Below, piece by piece: positions 46,752-51,645 of a stretch of DNA of 64,000 nucleotides (its first letter is position 1; every line of letters begins with the position of its first letter). The position numbers and the translations under genes are program-made. Source of the DNA: Pedobacter cryoconitis (GTDB taxonomy: Bacteria; Bacteroidota; Bacteroidia; Sphingobacteriales; Sphingobacteriaceae); assembly GCF_003259615.1 (NCBI RefSeq), contig NZ_QLLR01000008.1, forward strand, positions 1 to 64,000, read 5' to 3'. Under the pieces are notes generated by a model that saw nothing but the letters and a program-made list of their open reading frames with translations, was not told the DNA's origin and searched no databases.

Positions 46752-46991
46752 ATGATGAATGTAATTATATTTAAAACATCAGTCCAGGACAAGGATGATC
46801 TGGATTGTGTAAGGCCAGCACTCAATGCTTTCCTGGGAGAGAAGAACTGGACATTCGATTTAGAAGACGTAGATAAAATTTTAAGGGTAGTGAGCCCGGT
46901 AATCTGCACGATAGCCGTAGAACAATTATTGCTGGAACATGGATTCCTGTGTATAGAAATGCCTTATTCTCTGGATGAGTTTAATACTTAA
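46752..46991 (+). CDS. Small conserved-looking hypothetical protein
   Basis: 79 residues, MMNVIIFKTSVQDKDDLDCV..., with WTFDLEDVDKILRV. Acidic, alpha/beta, one domain, no signal peptide. The pattern resembles short ferredoxin-like-fold proteins in Bacteroidota, but no function is known to me. It stands alone, 170 bp after the LytTR gene and convergent with the second gap operon. Confidence 0.65.
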   Translation: MMNVIIFKTSVQDKDDLDCVRPALNAFLGEKNWTFDLEDVDKILRVVSPVICTIAVEQLLLEHGFLCIEMPYSLDEFNT

Positions 46992-46999
46992 AACCAGAA

Positions 47000-47025
47000 A
47001 GGGATCTTCCTTGCGGAAAATCCCT
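47000..47025 (-). terminator. Probable terminator of the pfkA-gap operon
   Basis: AGGGATCTTCC, loop TTGC, GGAAAATCCCT form a stem with one mismatch. On the minus strand it is followed by T-rich TTCTGGTTTT, so it most likely ends the minus-strand operon 35 bp after gap. Confidence 0.55.
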
Positions 47026-47059
47026 GTTCTAACTACCTATGAATCTGTGTGAACAGATA

Positions 47060-48909
<1,850 letters not shown>

Positions 48910-48910
48910 G

Positions 48911-49897
48911 TTAAATTGATAAAACTTTAGTCATTTCCAAAAGATCACTTTCTAATTTAAAACTATGCTCTGTCAACGCTTCATCCAAGCTGGTTAACCT
49001 GATCTCATTGCCACGTAAGCCTACCATTTGTTGTGTACTGCCTTTCAGCAATTCATTTACAGCGGCATAACCTAAACGGCTTCCTAAAATCCTGTCAAAA
49101 CTACTCGGGCTTCCGCCACGTTGCAAGTGTCCTAATATAGTGACCTTTGTGTCATAATGATTGAATTTTTCTTTAACATGTTTCGCAATGTCATAAGCGC
49201 CGCCTTGTTTATGTCCTTCAGACACAATTACAATGCTCGACGATTTTTTTGTTGCTGCTCCGATTTCCAATTGTTTAATCAGTTCATCAAGACTCGTTGC
49301 TTTCTCAGGCAGTAAGACAGCTTCAGCTCCACAGGCAATAGCGCTTCTTAAAGCGATACAACCTGAATCCCGGCCCATTACTTCTACAAAAAATAAACGG
49401 TCATGCGAATCTGCAGTATCCCTGATCTTATCTATAGCTTCAATAACTGTGTTAATCGCAGTATCGTAACCTAATGTAAAATCAGAACCGTATAAATCAT
49501 TGTCGATGGTACCAGGAATGGCAATTACATTGATATGATGTCTTTGTGCAAAACGACGGGCTCCGGTAAAAGTACCATCACCGCCAATTACTACAAGTGC
49601 ATCTATTTGGTGCAGTTTAAGGTGCTCATAAGCAAGATCCATTCCTTCGTCGGTTTTAAACTCTAAACAGCGTGCTGTTTTAAGTACTGTTCCGCCTAAA
49701 TGGATTATGTTGCTCACTGAACGGGCATCCATAGGAATAATATTGTTAGTTATTAATCCTTGATAACCTTGCAAAACTCCAAACATATTTATACCATTGT
49801 AAATACCGGTACGTACTACTGCTCTGATGCATGCGTTCATTCCGGGAGCGTCACCCCCAGATGTCAATACAGCGATATTTTTGATATTTGGTTTCAT
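48911..49897 (-). CDS. pfkA: ATP-dependent 6-phosphofructokinase
   Basis: 328 residues. Phosphorylates fructose 6-phosphate, the committing step of glycolysis. TSGGDAPGMNACIRAVV at the N-terminus and IGGDGTFTGA and IPGTIDNDL in the middle mark the family; the Gly in GGDG and PGT indicate ATP rather than pyrophosphate use. MGRDSGCIA and LGHLQRGGSPSSFDR follow. First gene of the operon pfkA, kinase-like gene, gap. A perfect palindrome lies upstream, shared with the divergent regulator. Confidence 0.96.
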   Translation of the reverse strand: MKPNIKNIAVLTSGGDAPGMNACIRAVVRTGIYNGINMFGVLQGYQGLITNNIIPMDARSVSNIIHLGGTVLKTARCLEFKTDEGMDLAYEHLKLHQIDALVVIGGDGTFTGARRFAQRHHINVIAIPGTIDNDLYGSDFTLGYDTAINTVIEAIDKIRDTADSHDRLFFVEVMGRDSGCIALRSAIACGAEAVLLPEKATSLDELIKQLEIGAATKKSSSIVIVSEGHKQGGAYDIAKHVKEKFNHYDTKVTILGHLQRGGSPSSFDRILGSRLGYAAVNELLKGSTQQMVGLRGNEIRLTSLDEALTEHSFKLESDLLEMTKVLSI

Positions 49898-49919
49898 CTG
49901 TTTATATTACGAATATACC

Positions 49920-49934
49920 GTGTAGATATTACAC
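49920..49934. promoter_or_regulatory. Candidate operator between pfkA and the Nudix-type regulator
   Basis: GTGTA GATAT TACAC is a perfect 5-5-5 inverted repeat in the 117-bp divergent intergenic region. It lies upstream of a possible minus-strand -7 element (TATATTCG) for pfkA. NrtR/AraR-type regulators bind short inverted repeats near their genes, so this is a natural candidate site. Confidence 0.5.
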
Positions 49935-50014
49935 TAAGTAATTTATTTTGATTTATTTTATGTAAATCGCAAACAAGTATATTAATTTGCTTTAGTTTTT
50001 AAAAATTTAATGTT

Positions 50015-50704
50015 TTGAAAGAAGTCTTACCACAGCTTAATTCCACCTTCTCAATTGATTGTGTTTTATTCGGATTTGATGAAGGAGAATTAAAAGTTCT
50101 GCTGATTGAAAGGAACGAGGAACCTTTTAAAGATTGGTGGGCCCTTCCGGGGTATCTTGTAAATGAGAACGAAAGTCTGGATCAGTCCGCGGCCCGTATC
50201 TTGCACGAACTCACAGGAATAGAGAATGTTTACATGGAGCAGTTTTATACTTTTGGTGACGTAGGCCGTCACCCTCAGGGAAGAATTATATCCGTAGCTT
50301 ATTATGCAATGTTGCGATTGGGAGGGGATAAAGCCCTTAAGCCGATCAGTAATTATGCGAAACAAGCACACTGGATTAATGTCAAAGACTTACCTCCGCT
50401 GGCATTTGACCACCAGAAAATATTTGACCAGGGACTCGAAAAAATAAAAAGAAGGATCAAACATCAGCCAATTGCTTTTGAATTACTTCCGGAGAAATTC
50501 ACTTTGACACAATTACAAAATGTGTATGAAGTGATCTTGGGTAAGAAATTAGATAAAAGGAATTTCAGGAAAAAGATGCTGAGCTTTAATGTCTTGAAAG
50601 ATCTCAATGAGAAACAAAAGGGAGTTTCCTTCCGCGCGGCAACCTTATACCGTTTTGATAAAAGAAAATATGGAAAGTTATTTGGAAAAGAAATCTCCTT
50701 TTAA
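50015..50704 (+). CDS. NrtR/AraR-like transcriptional regulator (degenerate Nudix domain + winged helix)
   Basis: 229 residues from a TTG start at 50015 (KEVLPQLNSTFSIDCV). An N-terminal Nudix-fold domain (VLLIERNEEPFKDWWALPG) precedes a C-terminal winged helix (LTQLQNVYEVILGKKLDKRN and KGVSFRAATLYRFDKRKYG). The Nudix box, GYLVNENESLDQSAARILHE LTG, has RI and EL in place of the catalytic RE and EE, so hydrolysis is improbable and ligand sensing likely. This architecture is known for NrtR (ADP-ribose sensing) and AraR in Bacteroidota. Divergent from pfkA-gap, so a sugar or glycolysis regulator is inferred. Confidence 0.88.
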   Translation: MKEVLPQLNSTFSIDCVLFGFDEGELKVLLIERNEEPFKDWWALPGYLVNENESLDQSAARILHELTGIENVYMEQFYTFGDVGRHPQGRIISVAYYAMLRLGGDKALKPISNYAKQAHWINVKDLPPLAFDHQKIFDQGLEKIKRRIKHQPIAFELLPEKFTLTQLQNVYEVILGKKLDKRNFRKKMLSFNVLKDLNEKQKGVSFRAATLYRFDKRKYGKLFGKEISF

Positions 50705-50781: not shown

Positions 50782-51645
50782 CTATTTCAGACTTCTTGCT
50801 GGCTGCATATGGTAATCAACAAGATCATCTATAGGAGAACGGATAATTTTCCCTACACCCATTTCATATCTGTCTGCAACAATACTTAATATATCTCTGA
50901 AGCTATAGCCTACAGAACCTACACAGTTCAAGGTATAATCTTTATAGTTCGGGTAATGAATAACCAGATTTTCAAAGAATGCTGTAAAAGCATATTCAAC
51001 TGTAGAGAACGCATAATCCTCATAGTTATCTTTGAAATCATACAAGAACTTACTGAATCCTGCACAGAAACGATTTGGAAGAGGTTTATTGTAAATATGA
51101 TCGAAAATATCTTCGTTCGTCAAAGCGAAGTTGTCATAAAAACTTTCTCTCAAACCTTTAGGCATGTAACCTTTCATATAATCACCCAGGATACGTTTAC
51201 CGATATAGCAACCGCTACCTTCGTCTCCTAAGAAATATCCTAAAGAGTCAATGTTTAAAGAAATATCACTTCCGTCATAAAGACAAGAATTTGTACCTGT
51301 ACCTAAGATTGCGGCAAAACCTGGCTCATCACCCAGTAATGCTCTGCAAGAAGCCAGTAAATCATGTCCAATAAAGATGATTGCATTAGGGAAAACCTGT
51401 CCCATTGCATCTGCTACAATTTTTTTATTCGCGTCAGTTGAACAACCTGCGCCATAATAATATACTTCTGTTAGCTTATCTGCCTCTAAATGATCTGGTA
51501 AAGATTTTTTTAAAGATTCAACAATATAATCTGTACGGGAAAAATACGGATTGTAACCTTCGGTATTAAAATGAATTTTTCTACCAGCTTCATTAATTAA
51601 GCACCAATTGGTTTTGGTTGAACCACCATCTGCAATAACTATCAT
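50782..51645 (-). CDS. BadF/BadG/NagK-like sugar kinase
   Basis: 287 residues from the ATG at 51645 (MIVIADGGSTKTNW); an upstream in-frame ATG at 51693 adds an unlikely 16 residues. Intact ATP-binding motifs: ADGGSTKT, AILGTGTNSCLYDG, GDEGSGCYIGKRIL; catalytic-base candidate Asp in FIGHDLLASCRALLG. The family includes N-acetylglucosamine kinase. It is a full paralogue of the degenerate gene at 48067-48909. The preferred substrate is probably an amino sugar, by analogy. Confidence 0.9.
   Translation of the reverse strand: MIVIADGGSTKTNWCLINEAGRKIHFNTEGYNPYFSRTDYIVESLKKSLPDHLEADKLTEVYYYGAGCSTDANKKIVADAMGQVFPNAIIFIGHDLLASCRALLGDEPGFAAILGTGTNSCLYDGSDISLNIDSLGYFLGDEGSGCYIGKRILGDYMKGYMPKGLRESFYDNFALTNEDIFDHIYNKPLPNRFCAGFSKFLYDFKDNYEDYAFSTVEYAFTAFFENLVIHYPNYKDYTLNCVGSVGYSFRDILSIVADRYEMGVGKIIRSPIDDLVDYHMQPARSLK

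Follow-up and report, generated by a model that had tools for sequence, protein, structure and literature searches.

The window analysed here, a stretch of DNA 64 kb long taken as a whole, carries a gene for an NrtR/AraR-like regulator, termed REG, that faces away from an operon headed by pfkA and closed by gapA (Table 1). What does such a regulator read, what does it sense and which genes does it control? The original prediction was one of glycolytic control. This reading was largely supported, and it is extended below by a site before the pyruvate kinase gene (pyk) and by a candidate small RNA, both absent from that prediction.

Table 1. Features of the REG locus, numbered from the first position of the window
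Feature	Position	Strand	Basis
REG, NrtR/AraR-like regulator, dead Nudix domain and NrtR winged helix	50015..50704	+	domain search, alignment
pfkA, ATP-dependent 6-phosphofructokinase, first gene of target operon	48911..49897	-	TIGR02482, 411 bits vs cut-off 371
BadF/NagK-like protein, probable pseudokinase	48067..48909	-	phosphate-1 aspartate missing
gapA, glyceraldehyde-3-phosphate dehydrogenase, last gene of operon	47060..48061	-	domain search
Second BadF/NagK-like kinase, intact DGGSTKT motif, ATG at 51645	50782..51645	-	domain search, motif reading
Operator GTGTAGATATTACAC (GTGT-N7-ACAC), BtAraR operator type	49920..49934	.	pattern search, comparative
-7 box TATATTCG of pfkA promoter, 2 bp from operator	49910..49917	-	conserved position
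Degenerate copy of the candidate small RNA, gapA 3' UTR, seed eroded, terminator kept	46983..47047	-	34 bits, E 2.4e-6 in 2 kb

The regulator, its neighbours and its ligand pocket

The open reading frame of REG encodes 229 aa and starts with TTG, which is also the apparent start codon of REG in most species (L011-L090); positions 49898-50014 are intergenic between pfkA and REG and lie outside this frame. The NrtR/AraR layout ascribed to the regulator was recovered in full, with scores for NUDIX (51.3 bits), NrtR_WHD (100.7) and AraR_C (58.4). The fusion of a Nudix domain to NrtR_WHD, both above the gathering score, is the arrangement expected of the NrtR family. The impaired Nudix motif also expected of this family was found in 80/80 Pedobacter orthologs, where the RE pair of the Nudix box has become RI and the EE pair EL. 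The claim that the box lacks the catalytic glutamates was borne out for these two; two further glutamates of the motif are retained in the 80 orthologs.

The neighbouring genes follow the order previously described: pfkA, a BadF-like gene and gapA run divergent from REG, and a second BadF-like kinase gene lies downstream in a convergent orientation. pfkA adjoins REG in 79 of 80 Pedobacter-like loci (the exception is L037) and in 17 of the 20 loci sampled from other genera and one divergent Pedobacter; it was not beside REG in L215, L218 and L225. In the BadF-like protein of the operon, the phosphate-1 aspartate is missing (VYSGS/T for IADGGST) in 79/79 loci read, and by this motif alone a conserved pseudokinase probably lies between pfkA and gapA in the glycolytic operon. 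The suggestion that this pseudokinase and the second kinase form a module with the regulator stood for the former, which belongs to the operon. The second kinase has an exact palindrome of its own in 41/77 Pedobacter loci but none in the 64-kb window. A 5S rRNA gene was detected with Rfam at positions 1734-1845.

The window belongs to a Pedobacter, and the nearest named relatives are P. cryoconitis, with a regulator 99% identical to REG. REG was present in 121/121 genomes of the order scanned, at 52-100% identity, with paralogs at no more than 47% and up to 8 family members per genome. Its closest solved relative is the Bacteroides AraR (E 6.6e-57), and in the tree REG forms a clade of its own (support 97/87) beside AraR and XylR. 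This genome carries three other members of the family: an AraR at araB-araD-araA, a separate NrtR adjoining the genes for NAMPT and PRPP synthetase (prs; L098) and a third that is unplaced. The third, NrtR-like paralog (L097; G000:C11:107112) has a divergent helix and a 12-residue insert and adjoins an efflux system.

Three labels were considered for REG and rejected. The AraR label fails on the separate clade, on the changed pocket and on the presence of the genome's own AraR at the arabinose genes; neither linkage to arabinose genes nor placement in the AraR clade was found for REG. XylR, represented in the tree by xyl-linked rows as BT0791 itself is absent from it, falls on a branch apart from REG (97/87). 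The NrtR label is contradicted by a score of 154 bits against the 400-bit NCBIfam cut-off and by changed ADP-ribose contacts. Judged by domains and tree position, REG is a member of the NrtR family and not AraR, XylR or NrtR proper. One or two stop codons were seen within the REG match in six genomes of group g2 (G040, G059, G093, G101, G106 and G109); g2 is Sphingobacterium-like and g3, mentioned below, Mucilaginibacter-like, both by presumed genus names.

Four residues of the arabinose pocket (R34, R86, H131 and F129) are retained in REG. F36 has become E in 79/80 Pedobacter orthologs, G48 is replaced by Y or N, and F49 is L in REG and I or F in relatives; an arabinose pocket including F36 and F49 is thus not found. 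The ADP-ribose contacts of SoNrtR are K76, R98 and N43 (PMC4666351), and these positions are L, Q and E in REG. From these residues, the pocket appears to keep its sugar-binding groups and to fit neither arabinose nor ADP-ribose. We infer that the dead Nudix domain senses a ligand and, because of the regulon described below, our guess is a hexose or hexose phosphate. It is highly improbable that REG is instead NrtR proper, that is, an NAD regulator sensing ADP-ribose and linked to glycolysis through the NAD-dependent gapA. The best NCBIfam model for REG is that of an ADP-ribose-responsive repressor, and an operator of this type accompanies a Bacteroidota NrtR at nad genes (L237), but the score lies far under the cut-off of that model, the three contacts are replaced and this genome has a separate NrtR next to NAMPT and prs. 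Furthermore, NAD genes are not among the conserved REG-type targets in the sites across the scanned genomes, a PnuC-like gene with a site being found in one species (L165).

The operator, its reader and the regulon

The perfect GTGTA-N5-TACAC palindrome reported between REG and the pfkA operon was confirmed, and its full form, GTGTA-GATAT-TACAC, is the sole exact match in the window. When up to 2 mismatches are allowed, 28 places match in the window against 19 expected, and these weaker matches are background. The exact palindrome occurs genome-wide at 6 places compared to 2 for the reversed control, and the bare palindrome across 40 Pedobacter genomes at 431 places compared to 163. In 79/79 Pedobacter pfkA promoters, GTGTA-N5-TACAC is followed after 2 bp by TATATTCG, the end of which lies 8-13 bp from the pfkA start; this box was identified by the Bacteroidota consensus TAnnTTTG. 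The palindrome stays with pfkA even where the start of REG is 300-900 bp off, as in many Pedobacter loci. A chance palindrome was rejected on the 79/79 promoters and the much lower reversed controls, and a site tied to the start of REG itself was rejected since the palindrome tracks the pfkA start. A CRP site was also rejected, as the Bacteroides Crp consensus differs (PMC3878776).

In the sample of 20 loci described above, GTGT-N7-ACAC precedes the pfkA -7 box in 15 of the 17 with adjacent pfkA, counted by eye, at a distance of ~11 bp in L231 and 0-2 bp in the others; groups g2, g3, g4, g6, g7, g9 and g10 also have it before pfkA. No operator was found in the 70 bp upstream of pfkA in L227 and L228, and L227 has one pattern site further upstream. 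In a locus from another family (L246; REG 48% identical), the same divergent layout is found with the exact palindrome 23 bp before pfkA. Conservation of the palindrome in relatives, on which the original prediction depended, was therefore seen within Pedobacter, in several other genera and in another family. On comparative grounds, GTGTA-N5-TACAC is identified as the pfkA operator.

The operator crystallised with BtAraR is GTGT-TACTTTT-ACAC according to Table 2 of PMC4666351, and the pfkA operator has the same half-sites and the same spacing. The BtAraR residues D178, K179, R180, N181, R183, K184 and R205 are retained in REG and K204 is changed; five of the six AraR DNA contacts (K179, R180, N181, K184, K204 and R205) are thereby kept, K204 being F in REG and Y or H in relatives. 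The helix DKRNFRK of REG is identical to D178-K184 of BtAraR and invariant in 80/80 Pedobacter orthologs, and the three other family members of this genome all differ from REG in the recognition helix. Sequence comparison supports the reading of GTGT-N7-ACAC by a REG dimer with an AraR-type recognition helix.

The operator type is common across the NrtR family, being shared by other members at nad (L237), xyl (L241) and ara (L238) loci, and the number of members per genome can be high. The palindromes might therefore be read by a different protein, be it a paralog (AraR or NrtR) or a factor from outside the family, with REG adjacent by chance. We consider this very unlikely, given that within this genome the BtAraR helix is kept in REG alone, that the adjacency of REG and pfkA extends over 79/80 Pedobacter loci and to L246, and that the sites are kept in G016, G033 and G092, where REG is the sole match at E<=1e-20. 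In G016, the pfkA, pyk, badF2, small-RNA and susC sites are all present. In multi-paralog genomes, some operator sites may belong to other family members.

To define the regulon read by REG, 121 genomes were searched for GTGT-N7-ACAC followed within 2 bp by TATATTNG. This operator-plus-promoter pattern was found in 99/121 genomes, and the reversed control gave 1 match over all 121. Each of 48 Pedobacter genomes contains exactly two such sites. Firstly, one of the two adjoins REG, as established by comparing coordinates. Secondly, the other lies before the pyruvate kinase gene in 25/25 further genomes fetched and in 6 genomes fetched earlier, and there the operator abuts the -7 box of the pyk promoter. 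Other recurrent places of the palindrome are the second BadF kinase, susCD operons and a sugar MFS transporter; in this genome, one susCD operon, next to a LacI regulator, has a GTGT-N7-ACAC site upstream (L112). The distribution of sites agrees with the glycolytic regulon initially proposed and not with one of NAD genes only. From these sites, the core regulon is read as glycolysis, namely pfkA-gapA and pyk.

As weaker leads, palindromes were also observed in several Pedobacter species upstream of thrA-like (aspartokinase-homoserine dehydrogenase) genes (L148, L158 and L166), of nuoB (NADH dehydrogenase subunit B; L147 and L169) and of a purF-like (amidophosphoribosyltransferase) gene (L145), and sites at lpxD and threonine-dehydrogenase genes occur in single or few species. 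Operator-plus-promoter matches without the RNA seed described below are found in L305, L315, L316 and L319.

A candidate small RNA behind the same operator

A further site was found downstream of gapA in 39/76 loci; it faces away from that gene, and behind it come a -7 box and then non-coding DNA in which a conserved core, AGGTTTATATTTGGTTAG, is accompanied by an intrinsic terminator. The core is present in 64 loci among L011-L090, with an operator no more than 330 nt upstream in 39 and none in 25. In these 25 operator-less copies, the core is close to the gapA end (it follows the stop codon immediately in 7 of the 16 read) and would therefore ride on the pfkA transcript. This genome contains the exact core twice, once directly after a palindrome at C3:4431 that had previously seemed geneless and once, at C18, without an operator. 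Most of the extra g2 pattern matches that were fetched (L306-L314 and L317) drive ~85-nt forms of the same RNA. Together with L386-L399, these loci, mostly from g2, hold multicopy RNAs of ~85 nt with the seed AGGTTTATAATTGGTTAG; most have GTGT-N7-ACAC against the -7 box, and there are up to 13 copies per genome.

In an alignment of 35 sequences, the seed is near-invariant and 8/8 predicted terminator pairs show compensatory changes. A covariance model detected the small RNA in 118/121 Sphingobacteriaceae genomes, those of Pedobacter having 1-4 copies and those of g2 having 5-13, and no Rfam match was found for the element in the loci scanned. Folding of the long forms gave z-scores of -2.68, -5.13 and -3.06 in three cases and no signal in L325 (z -0.90). 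For the operator count, copies were picked by model score alone to avoid bias: GTGT-N7-ACAC lies upstream of 26/31 Pedobacter copies and of 15/21 copies in other genera (0.056 expected from shuffles), and 3 of the 5 operator-less Pedobacter copies are gapA 3' UTRs. In L401 and L405 (g3), the 15-bp operator has exactly the sequence crystallised with BtAraR. The operator is shown by its sequence to precede most stand-alone copies of the candidate small RNA; a further set of copies forms the gapA 3' UTR.

In many species the element also serves as the gapA 3' UTR, and terminator hairpins covary in any case; it might thus be a mere conserved terminator or 3'-UTR stabiliser with no targets in trans. 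This is rather unlikely, as the unpaired seed hardly varies even though the stem does, the element also occurs in short stand-alone versions that have a promoter of their own, up to 13 per genome, and the seed complement is found at start codons. With at most 1 mismatch, CTAACCAAWWATAAA occurs at 21 places in this genome, two of which are the RNA genes, compared to 13 for the reversed control. Twelve of the other 19 places overlap a correctly oriented ATG or lie at most 25 nt upstream of one, compared to 7% for shuffled patterns at start codons (binomial 4e-10). The 12 genes, all from one genome and with names assigned by eye, include three SusC-like receptors, four lipoprotein-like genes, a LacI regulator, a DUF1080 hydrolase, a GH127-like enzyme, an aminotransferase and one more. 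No enrichment of the seed complement was found over 1102 start regions of the loci examined (34/1094 non-SusC regions against a shuffle mean of 29, with 3 mismatches), in a test whose SusC filter caught 8 genes only. Targeting by the RNA is predicted and makes a good hypothesis, for which the position of the near-exact matches argues; it is graded no higher because the total is only moderately above the control and the 1102-region test was negative. A DUF1080 hydrolase gene (L093 5083 and L345) has both a palindrome upstream and the seed complement over its start codon.

A proposed circuit and its relation to known systems

We propose that REG represses central glycolysis in Sphingobacteriaceae and senses a sugar or a sugar phosphate. 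A dimer bound to the spacer of the pfkA-badF-gapA promoter and beside the pyk -7 box would block RNA polymerase, and binding of a metabolite to the dead Nudix domain would free the dimer from DNA, as L-arabinose does with BtAraR. The same operator would also control the stand-alone copies of the small RNA, and the copies in the gapA 3' UTR would ride on the pfkA promoter. Upon derepression of glycolysis, the RNA would then shut down translation of alternative sugar-uptake genes, which would amount to a catabolite-repression circuit.

We infer repression rather than activation because of the position of the site and the behaviour of BtAraR. An activating REG, with the operator recruiting polymerase to pfkA and pyk, is unlikely: it would also need the invariant position of the site relative to the -7 box, but a dimer on this site would occupy the promoter spacer and be expected to clash with sigma there, and BtAraR is freed from DNA by its sugar (PMC4666351). 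It is probable that REG represses pfkA-gapA and pyk via the operator, that a sugar-type ligand releases it and that the RNA silences polysaccharide uptake. The same circuit across the family, in which REG would sense a glycolytic sugar phosphate, repress pfkA-gapA, pyk and a multicopy RNA through one operator and free them all under plentiful sugar, so that the RNA would pair at start codons of genes for SusC-type receptors and other polysaccharide functions and shut off alternative uptake, is possible and put forward tentatively.

Metabolite-sensing glycolytic regulators are known from other phyla in CggR, HexR and Cra; REG would work like these but comes from an unrelated protein family. BtAraR (BT0354, PDB 5bs6; PMC4666351) shares with REG the fold, the layout, the inactive Nudix box, the helix DKRNFRK and the operator GTGT-N7-ACAC. 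The two proteins are 43% identical over aligned columns and differ at F36, G48 and F49 (E, Y and L in REG), in clade, and in targets, which for REG are pfkA-gapA and pyk and not arabinose genes. Bacteroides XylR (BT0791) belongs to the same NrtR family and regulates a sugar pathway, and its xyl-linked relatives have GTGT-N7-ACAC (L241); in contrast to REG, its targets are xylose genes, and the xyl-linked rows branch separately. The Shewanella NrtR (PDB 3gz5) and Bacteroidota NrtR combine a Nudix domain and a winged helix as REG does, whereas REG is devoid of the ADP-ribose contacts and NAD genes are not its core targets.

For the RNA, FopS/GibS of B. thetaiotaomicron (PMC11697453) are likewise short and multicopy, with a single-stranded seed, a terminator and predicted pairing at susC starts; the two were compared by description and not by seed letters, and targeting here is predicted only. 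FopS is reported within Bacteroidaceae, unlike the RNA of Sphingobacteriaceae, and its promoters are described as canonical with a further, unknown regulator, whereas the Sphingobacteriaceae RNAs carry a REG-type operator (PMC11697453). In the literature searched, with bioRxiv and most subscription papers outside it, we found no account of a Bacteroidota transcriptional regulator dedicated to core glycolysis, nor any of this RNA family.

If the proposal is right, the NrtR fold, otherwise familiar from the control of NAD and pentose metabolism, has been recruited to central glycolysis, and a SusC-directed RNA family would have its upstream transcription factor named; the FopS work, which mentions an unknown transcriptional regulator, leaves this open for its own RNAs (PMC11697453). 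Sequence alone suffices to read the regulator, its DNA tag, two core targets and the RNA arm, which are testable in cultivable soil bacteria. If the family-wide circuit is true, a transcription factor and an RNA family would jointly fill the role played elsewhere by cAMP-CRP or HPr-CcpA.
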